Part shown: in pieces, positions 20,477 through 27,024 of the stretch
How positions within the stretch are numbered: position 1 is the stretch's first letter
How the letters are laid out: the number at the start of each line of letters is the position of its first letter
Assembly: GCA_902558705.1 (NCBI GenBank)
Contig: CACEEW010000008.1
Span: 1-48,307, forward strand
Origin: an uncultured Pelagibacteraceae bacterium
GTDB lineage: Bacteria > Pseudomonadota > Alphaproteobacteria > Pelagibacterales > Pelagibacteraceae
Reading direction: 5' to 3'
DNA: 48,307 nt
The notes under the pieces: model-generated
Database searches by the model: none
Told to the model about the DNA's origin: nothing
The model's input: only the letters and a program-made list of their open reading frames with translations
Translations under genes and position numbers: made by a program

Positions 20477-21493
20477 TTAACTAAATGCTTCTACCCAAGT
20501 TCCTTGAGTTGATGCTTTAGAATACTCTGTTGCTCTACCTTCAAAGAAATTCATGTGTTCTACGGCATTTAACATAGTATCTAGCCATCCTAATGGATTT
20601 TTTTGAACATCATAAATTGGTTCCAAACCTAACTGGACCAATCTACGGTTTCCAATAAATCTAATATAGTCTTTAACTTCTTTTGCAGTAAGACCTTCCA
20701 TTGGTCCCATTTCAAATGCAAGATCTATAAAAGCATCTTCATGTTCAATAATAGTTCTACATGCTTCGTAAAGTTCTTTCTTTAGTTTTGCATTCCATAT
20801 TTCTGGGTTCTCTTTAATGAATTCTTTGAAAATTCTTATCATAGAATTACAATGTAGAGTTTCATCTCTAACAGACCATGTAACTATTTGGCCCATACCT
20901 TTCATCTTATTATGTCTTGGAAAGTTCAAAAGAATAGCAAAACTTGCAAACAACTGTAGACCTTCTGTGAATGCACTAAAAACTGCAACTGTTTTAGCTA
21001 TGTCTTCTTTCGAACTCATATCAAAATTTTGCATGTAATCGTATTTGTCTTTCATCTCTTTATACTTCATGAAAGCAGAGTACTCAGACTCGGGCATACC
21101 AATTGTATCTAAAAGATGTGAGTAAGCAGCAATATGGACTGTTTCCATAGATGCAAAAGCAGTCATCATCATCAAAACTTCTGTTGGTTTAAACACAGTT
21201 GTATAATGTCTCAAATAACAATTGCTAACTTCAACATCTGCTTGAGTAAAAAATCTAAATATTTGAGTTAATAAATTTTTTTCTGATTGAGACAAATTTT
21301 TCTGCCAATCTCTAACATCATCACCTAATGGGACCTCTTCTGGTAACCAATGAATTCTTTGTTGTGTTAGCCATGCATCGTAACACCATGGATATCTGAA
21401 TGGTTTATAAACAGGATTTTCAACTAATAGTCCCATTTTTTTTGGTTGGATTATTTCTTTTTTTTCTGTTTTTATTTTTTCTGCTACTGACAT
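20477..21493 (-). CDS. nrdB: Ribonucleotide reductase class Ia, beta subunit
   Basis: Diiron-tyrosyl radical subunit that starts catalysis in NrdA. The metal ligands and radical are at the positions expected from E. coli plus two: D86, E117, H120 and the tyrosine radical Y124 ('METVHIAAYSHLL'). The second helix pair carries 'AFTEGLQLF' and 'RDETLHCNSM'. I chose the ATG at 21493 over the GTG at 21502 because a GAGGAG site lies 8 nt before the ATG and would collide with the GTG. It overlaps the nrdA 3' end by 10 nt. The retained Tyr makes this the standard Fe-Tyr type. No ATP-cone is present at the N-terminus. Confidence 0.95.
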   Translation of the reverse strand: MSVAEKIKTEKKEIIQPKKMGLLVENPVYKPFRYPWCYDAWLTQQRIHWLPEEVPLGDDVRDWQKNLSQSEKNLLTQIFRFFTQADVEVSNCYLRHYTTVFKPTEVLMMMTAFASMETVHIAAYSHLLDTIGMPESEYSAFMKYKEMKDKYDYMQNFDMSSKEDIAKTVAVFSAFTEGLQLFASFAILLNFPRHNKMKGMGQIVTWSVRDETLHCNSMIRIFKEFIKENPEIWNAKLKKELYEACRTIIEHEDAFIDLAFEMGPMEGLTAKEVKDYIRFIGNRRLVQLGLEPIYDVQKNPLGWLDTMLNAVEHMNFFEGRATEYSKASTQGTWVEAFS

Positions 21494-26672: not shown

Positions 26673-26757
26673 AAATTTTAATTAAAATAATAAAACTTTC
26701 ATTTTCAATTATTAAGAGTTTTGAATATTGACGAGAATCGCTTAAATTTTTAACTAA

Positions 26758-26794
26758 GGGTGGTAGAGGGAGACTGAAACCACCCCAACCCTCT
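26758..26794 (+). other. GC-rich element able to form a stem and pseudoknot
   Basis: GGGTGGT (26758-26764) is exactly complementary to ACCACCC (26779-26785). AGAGGG (26765-26770), in the loop of that hairpin, is exactly complementary to CCCTCT (26789-26794) downstream. About 59% of these 37 bases are G/C, in surroundings that are mostly A/T. No T-run follows on the + strand, so it is not an intrinsic terminator. It ends 23 nt before the start codon of the DUF2061 gene. This could be a 5' regulatory element or a small RNA; I cannot match it to a named riboswitch class. With no linker between the first two strands, the full pseudoknot may be strained. Confidence 0.45.
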
Positions 26795-26817
26795 TTCTAA
26801 AAGATATAGCTTTTTTA

Positions 26818-27024
26818 ATGGCAGATAAAAAAATCAGATCAGTTGCTAAAACATTTTCTTGGAGATTTTTAATATTTTTATATTGGATGTTATTTGGCTA
26901 TATTTTTACAGGATCTATTAAAATAGCAGGTATATTAGGTATTGGCTCTATAATCCCTCTTTTTTTTTACTACTTTCATGAAAGAGCGTGGAACAAAGTA
27001 AAATGGGGAACAGATAAAGAATAA
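26818..27024 (+). CDS. DUF2061 small membrane protein
   Basis: The 68-residue protein matches the DUF2061 pattern: an N-terminal 'RSVAKTFSWRFL', two hydrophobic segments (roughly residues 17-33 and 36-52) and 'YYFHERAWNKVKWG' at the end. It is predicted to be an inner-membrane protein with two passes. The function of this family is not known. No Shine-Dalgarno site is near the ATG, and a structured element lies in its leader. It converges on malonyl-CoA decarboxylase with 2 nt between stops. Confidence 0.8.
   Translation: MADKKIRSVAKTFSWRFLIFLYWMLFGYIFTGSIKIAGILGIGSIIPLFFYYFHERAWNKVKWGTDKE

Follow-up and report, generated by a model that had tools for sequence, protein, structure and literature searches.

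We found a short hairpin in SAR11 bacteria of the family Pelagibacteraceae and in some of their phages. Judged by its sequence conservation, it is best read as a structured-RNA family, for which no earlier description was found in the article texts covered by one open-access library; it may have been listed before, for instance with the HIMB5 candidates of PMC6429828. This small structured RNA family appears to be unusual in being common to a bacterial lineage and its phages. We favour, with somewhat better than even confidence, the reading that the element is a stand-alone SAR11 small RNA that acts in trans by presenting the loop octamer GGGAGACU and that has look-alikes in phages. Covariation in hosts and phages, a promoter-like block at fixed spacing, the almost constant limit of one copy per genome and the occurrence in pelagiphages all speak for this reading.

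In the window (the whole 48,307-nt stretch of DNA that was analysed), the element lies on the plus strand. Its 5' arm GGGTGGT (26758-26764) pairs perfectly over 7 bp with the 3' arm ACCACCC (26779-26785), as the preliminary description had read directly from the letters, and both arms belong to a stem with two-sided changes in our alignments. The loop AGAGGGAGACTGAA (26765-26778), delimited by the alignments, the fold and the phage copies, holds the core octamer GGGAGACT (26768-26775). A C/T-rich tail (26786-26797) contains CCCTCT (26789-26794), which is the perfect complement of the loop bases AGAGGG (26765-26770), also as first described. Most relatives have a terminator-like T run in this tail, which is absent in the window lineage. 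The G/C content of 59% (22 of 37 bases) and the missing T-run after the stem were likewise correctly reported. The window stem exceeds chance expectation; the 28-nt hairpin alone folds at -13 kcal/mol, with none of 200 shuffles as good (z -3.4), and the 43-nt stretch including the tail has an unremarkable fold (z -0.8; 44/200 shuffles as good). One possible fold of the loop core is a GAGA tetraloop on a closing G-C pair, beneath which lie purine mismatches. Phage HTVC011P has base pairs at the three positions flanking the core on either side, and HTVC120P, Bylgja and HTVC134P have a 2x2 inner loop; these variants agree with the tetraloop model.

We then investigated the stem in the SAR11 hosts. 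Among 83 distinct copies from the genus, 95.9% of the stem cells pair and five of the eight stem pairs show two-sided changes (67 cells versus 22.9 in shuffles, bearing in mind that kinship alone can lift sequences above such shuffles without any structure); one of the five measures, further pair types, is below the shuffles. A set of 53 matches, mostly from other genera, all gathered by our model R1 and with weakest members that are probably chance, shows 97.5% pairing, two-sided changes in six of the eight pairs and all five measures above the shuffles. Slid versions of the stem score far below the true stem in both sets. Thus the stem sequence differs between lineages of Pelagibacteraceae while the pairing stays. 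The preliminary description had proposed looking for covariation in two helices and for the same sequence at the same place in relatives. The first stem covaries and is present at the same place in relatives, and the second helix, between loop and tail, shows no covariation. The loop core GGGAGACU is conserved and the surrounding positions vary, an invariance that is partly ascertainment because the copies were first gathered by loop sequence. In genus g6, the matching stem of two copies (L277 and L279) encloses a loop that is extended and rearranged, GGAGACCGAGAGGCGAA.

With model R1, the element is detected in 164 of 297 family genomes, among them 81 of 127 good ones, and the other 46 good genomes have no match. 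Two of the 164 genomes have two matches and all others have one. An order-level search of 197 genomes matched 98, and every listed match belongs to the same family (Pelagibacteraceae). A scan of named genomes gave at least 120 stretches, and among the matches listed all are Pelagibacteraceae, Pelagibacterales or Pelagibacter. Allowing one mismatch at most, GAGGGAGACTGAA occurs in 260 of 397 family genomes, a count that includes chance matches. When 35 genomes, mostly without an earlier match, were searched less strictly, 11 gave matches at E up to 1; five of these are known copies (E 3e-8 to 1e-3), and six more weak matches (E 0.02 to 0.94) look like chance. In the TauE flanks of 14 genomes without the element, some of them cut by contig ends, the best hit of an unfiltered model search has an E of 0.19. 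A protein search found DUF2061 in 36 of 247 family genomes, and the same hairpin lies just upstream in 12 of 30 fetched DUF2061 loci, in some cases with other stem sequences. As for additional copies, L108 has two at sites 480 nt apart, and L296 and L316 each have a second, lower-scoring one.

The hairpin also occurs in phages. A search in which the loop and part of the 3' arm were fixed picked out 112 viral contigs, and in 110 of these the unconstrained 5' arm completes a stem of at least 6 bp, compared with 33 of 20000 random upstream flanks. Forty distinct phage hairpins, in an alignment that left out four named phages lacking the 3x3 inner loop, show 97.8% pairing and two-sided changes in seven of the eight pairs (85 cells versus 21.3). 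With gene functions taken from one representative per cluster, 55 of the 110 viral copies come after an amidase-cluster gene, with primase/helicase as the first or second gene beyond; 29 come after a major head gene, and 14 lie ahead of another primase. The first two groups have pelagiphages as their nearest named relatives. For the third, the nearest is pelagiphage HTVC027P at 41.5%, and a fourth, small group (L421, L429 and L430) finds distant cyanophage terminases only. Among 17 pelagiphages (16 pelagiphage records and HTVC010P; the named phages were chosen from those viral matches, not randomly), 13 carry a single stem-enclosed GGGAGACT, with a stem of 7 bp or more. Four lack the hairpin: GGGAGACT is absent from HTVC025P and HTVC119P, the sole octamer of HTVC023P has no stem, and none was found in HTVC010P. 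Further octamers without a stem are present in HTVC011P and HTVC168P. The octamers of four control phages, roseophage or cyanophage (CRP-125, CRP-113, CRP-5 and S-CBP1), never lie in a stem of at least 6 bp (0/4; best 5).

In five viral contigs (L465, L501, L504, L517 and L526), all called neighbouring ORFs are on the opposite strand, except for one of 45 codons in L517, and the hairpin therefore looks like a unit of its own there. Four of the five have a TATATATAAC-like stretch ahead of the hairpin, and L501 starts too close to tell. L484, a relative of these contigs, has plus-strand ORFs on both sides of the hairpin. We also noticed a second hairpin with the shared loop GATTAACACAGACAA and different paired stems in HTVC019P (L529, about 21080-21110) and HTVC011P (L531, about 20630-20660). 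It sits between capsid and tail tubular genes and is possibly another shared phage RNA motif. In HTVC019P (L529, 8867-9054), a terminator-like hairpin lies just before the element and an antisense tRNA-like stretch after it. At the place matching this stretch, Rfam detects a minus-strand tRNA in L437 (8141-8211), perhaps an attachment site.

We then investigated the sequence upstream of the hairpin, where position-wise conservation among 87 representatives reveals two blocks on the plus strand. Block A (CAAYTAWWAMGWGTT type; 26706-26720 in the window) is a possible activator site or -35 region and is replaced by other sequence in the L005/L058 lineage. Block B (GAATCG-CT-TAAATT; 26735-26748) has GAATC and TA at fixed spacing and includes the predicted -10 hexamer TAAATT (26743-26748). 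Of 218 host copies, 217 have GAATC 27-35 nt upstream of the loop. The hexamer at a fixed distance after it has T and A each at a frequency of 1.00 and a last-position T at 0.84 in the 218 copies, and it lies 7-8 nt from the stem in 169 of 217. The GAATC-N3-TAWWNT block is probably the -10 region of the element's own promoter. Its spacing places the predicted transcription start at the base of the hairpin (26754-26758), and with this start the predicted RNA would be about 42 nt long. Of 297 family genomes, 162 (among them 82 of the 127 good genomes) contain the pattern GAATCNNNTAN{12,28}GGGAGACT, where a few of the listed matches look like chance, and 2 contain its reversed control. A wider promoter regulon was considered and dropped, as the model of blocks A and B recovered nothing but the element above noise in 10 genomes. 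A mini-ORF (GTG/ATG ... GAG GGA GAC TGA) has an in-frame start and a stop in 195 of 218 copies. Coding seems unlikely, because the search pattern fixes GGGAGACT, 23 copies lack a start or a stop, and the stem covaries.

At least six T within 9 nt after the stem are found in 143 of the 218 host copies, and this T-tract is absent in the window lineage and in the L051 lineage. Conservation, covariation and this order of the parts are seen in the alignments themselves; transcription and both ends of the RNA are predicted. In the small-RNA reading that we favour, block B would act as the promoter, with block A as a possible activator site, and transcription would start at the base of the hairpin. 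The T-tract would end the transcript in most copies, giving an RNA of about 42 nt that would be a single hairpin displaying the octamer GGGAGACU. This RNA would act in trans through its loop, which a single partner would recognise, most probably an RNA-binding protein. The pelagiphage hairpins may address the same partner, either recruiting it to their own transcripts or titrating it from the host. In the window lineage, which has lost the T-tract, the transcript would probably read on into DUF2061. A more specific proposal, which we hold tentatively and rate somewhat below even, is that the loop GGGAGACU shared by the host RNA and several phage lineages marks an RNA-binding regulator of SAR11, and that phages capture this regulator by look-alikes.

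We then searched for the partner. Neither Hfq (present in 5/14 control genomes) nor CsrA (present in 3/14 control genomes) was found in nine SAR11 genomes. Hfq-dependent and CsrA-titrating mechanisms were therefore set aside, and the partner would be something else. We also looked for base-pairing targets. In all four genomes searched, GTCTCCCTC with one mismatch allowed gave fewer matches than its reversed control, and the exact complements of GTCTCCCTC in the fetched loci of four genomes had no gene start in common. One exact GTCTCCCTC match is 23S rRNA; the sense strand of this rRNA in SAR11 (L388, L397 and L402) includes GGAGGGAGAC, a 10-nt stretch that the common loop shares, at a place that we take to be the L1-stalk region. 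A mimic of the L1 site was considered from this likeness and set aside as a probable coincidence.

We then investigated the gene neighbourhood of the host copies. Among the genes of the window, Pfam identifies DUF2061, MCD, PGM/PMM, TauE, Dus and DctM; the TolA-like and lipoprotein-like labels are our own, Pfam having returned nothing for these proteins. A census of 180 distinct sites (up to 4 kb per side, less at locus ends) counted 154 pgm-like and 61 DUF2061 genes, all on the plus strand, together with 180 TauE-type genes (two at some sites) and 70 TolA-like genes, all on the minus strand. At no fewer than 20 of the 180 sites, the element is flanked by two minus-strand genes, a divergent TolA-like gene on one side and a convergent TauE gene on the other, so that it has no co-directional neighbour there. 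It is thus independent of its neighbouring genes at these sites, as a stand-alone small RNA would be. The next gene downstream of the element is convergent at many sites.

The main rival is a cis-acting signal for transcript end, processing or stability (a terminator, an end protector or an RNase site) that is read where it lies. The host copy would then mark where the upstream gene or a short transcription unit ends. We consider this cis reading rather unlikely. The T-tract of the 143 host copies fits such a signal, and pgm is the next upstream gene at many host sites; at other sites, however, including the window, genes intervene between pgm and the element. The phage sites are mostly lysozyme/primase or capsid/tail gaps, where some relatives have, by eye, ordinary terminator-like hairpins, and 98 of the 110 viral copies lie between co-directional genes, at a median of 45 nt before the next one. 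On the other hand, the T-tract is present in only 9 of the 110 viral copies and missing from 101. Moreover, ordinary terminators need neither a conserved loop nor a promoter-like block, and the element is nearly always a single copy per genome.

This last feature also suits a DNA-level site kept once per replicon (a cruciform, an origin, or a packaging or recombination site), as do the single stem-bearing octamer in each of 13 pelagiphages and the covariation of the inverted repeat. We nevertheless consider a DNA site improbable, since the loop is asymmetric, 98 of the 110 viral copies are on the same strand as the flanking genes, and the hosts have a -10-like element before the hairpin and a T-tract after it.

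Marginally less probable still is a cis-regulatory leader (a riboswitch, an attenuator or a protein operator) of DUF2061, a small membrane protein (Pfam PF09834) whose gene lies directly downstream in the window (26818-27024, plus strand). At 29 sites, DUF2061 starts 30-31 nt after the loop start. This leaves scant room for another promoter, and the gene is thus probably expressed either from the element's transcript or from one starting further upstream. However, the linkage is not constant: only 61 DUF2061 genes occur at the 180 sites, the downstream gene is often convergent, the element is retained where no DUF2061 is called, and some DUF2061 genes have no element directly upstream. An identical type of hairpin also adjoins unrelated phage genes. 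Among the options of the preliminary description, the structured RNA stands by its stem, a small RNA or a protein-binding site remains the best choice, and the riboswitch-like leader of DUF2061 is not supported. The H-type pseudoknot first proposed is very improbable: although the 6-bp complementarity of loop and tail is present in the window, where it is unusual for that tail alone (p 0.01), and in L185 (the L051 lineage has it in a different register), p < 0.05 is reached by only 6 of the 52 distinct non-T tails (p >= 0.05 for 46), and over 83 sequences the second helix shows no two-sided pair change and slid controls pair equally well.

A conserved small RNA that also occurs in some phages would, if confirmed, give access to the study of post-transcriptional control in SAR11 and of how phages exploit it. 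According to PMC13198564, SAR11 are among the most abundant bacteria of the sea and have few transcription regulators. If the regulator reading is true, the shared mark would work in bacteria where neither Hfq nor CsrA was found (nine genomes). A pull-down for the partner is practical, because the predicted RNA is short and its loop is nearly fixed. As given in their article, Meyer et al. 2009 (PMC2704228) surveyed intergenic regions with cuts of at least 100 bp and 26% G/C. The element's intergenic region in Candidatus Pelagibacter ubique has 205 nt and 22% G/C, below the G/C cut, which may explain its absence from the list in that article. However, 88 of 166 measured intergenic regions pass both cuts, so that length and G/C alone do not explain why earlier surveys missed the element.

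Finally, we compared the element with known systems. The SAM-II and SAM-V riboswitches are likewise small RNAs known from SAR11, as described in PMC2704228, and kinship to them had been raised at the outset. Our element differs from them in having neither a covariance-model match nor a conserved, supported H-type pseudoknot, and no methionine gene is among the neighbours identified. Rfam covariance models give no match at the gathering score in the window, five unrelated minus-strand matches, all far below gathering, around the element at E up to 10, and one tRNA only in 10 viral loci. The SAR11 rhtB element (Meyer et al. 2009, PMC2704228) is described as a hairpin with a conserved bulge, located near rhtB, proC and liv genes. 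It resembles ours in being a single SAR11 hairpin with a conserved loop, followed by poly-U in about half of the examples; in contrast, our hairpin shows no bulge and lies by pgm, TauE, MCD and DUF2061. This distinction follows the published description, and the two might still be one family. Intrinsic terminators share the G/C-rich stem with a T-tract (143/218 host copies), whereas our element has a conserved loop and a promoter-like block, and lacks the T-tract in the window and in 101 of the 110 viral copies. CsrB/RsmZ-type RNAs titrate a protein through purine-rich hairpin loops. They have many hairpins versus our one, and no CsrA gene was found in the nine SAR11 genomes. A purine-rich loop presented to a protein would, as we propose, be common to these RNAs and the SAR11 element.
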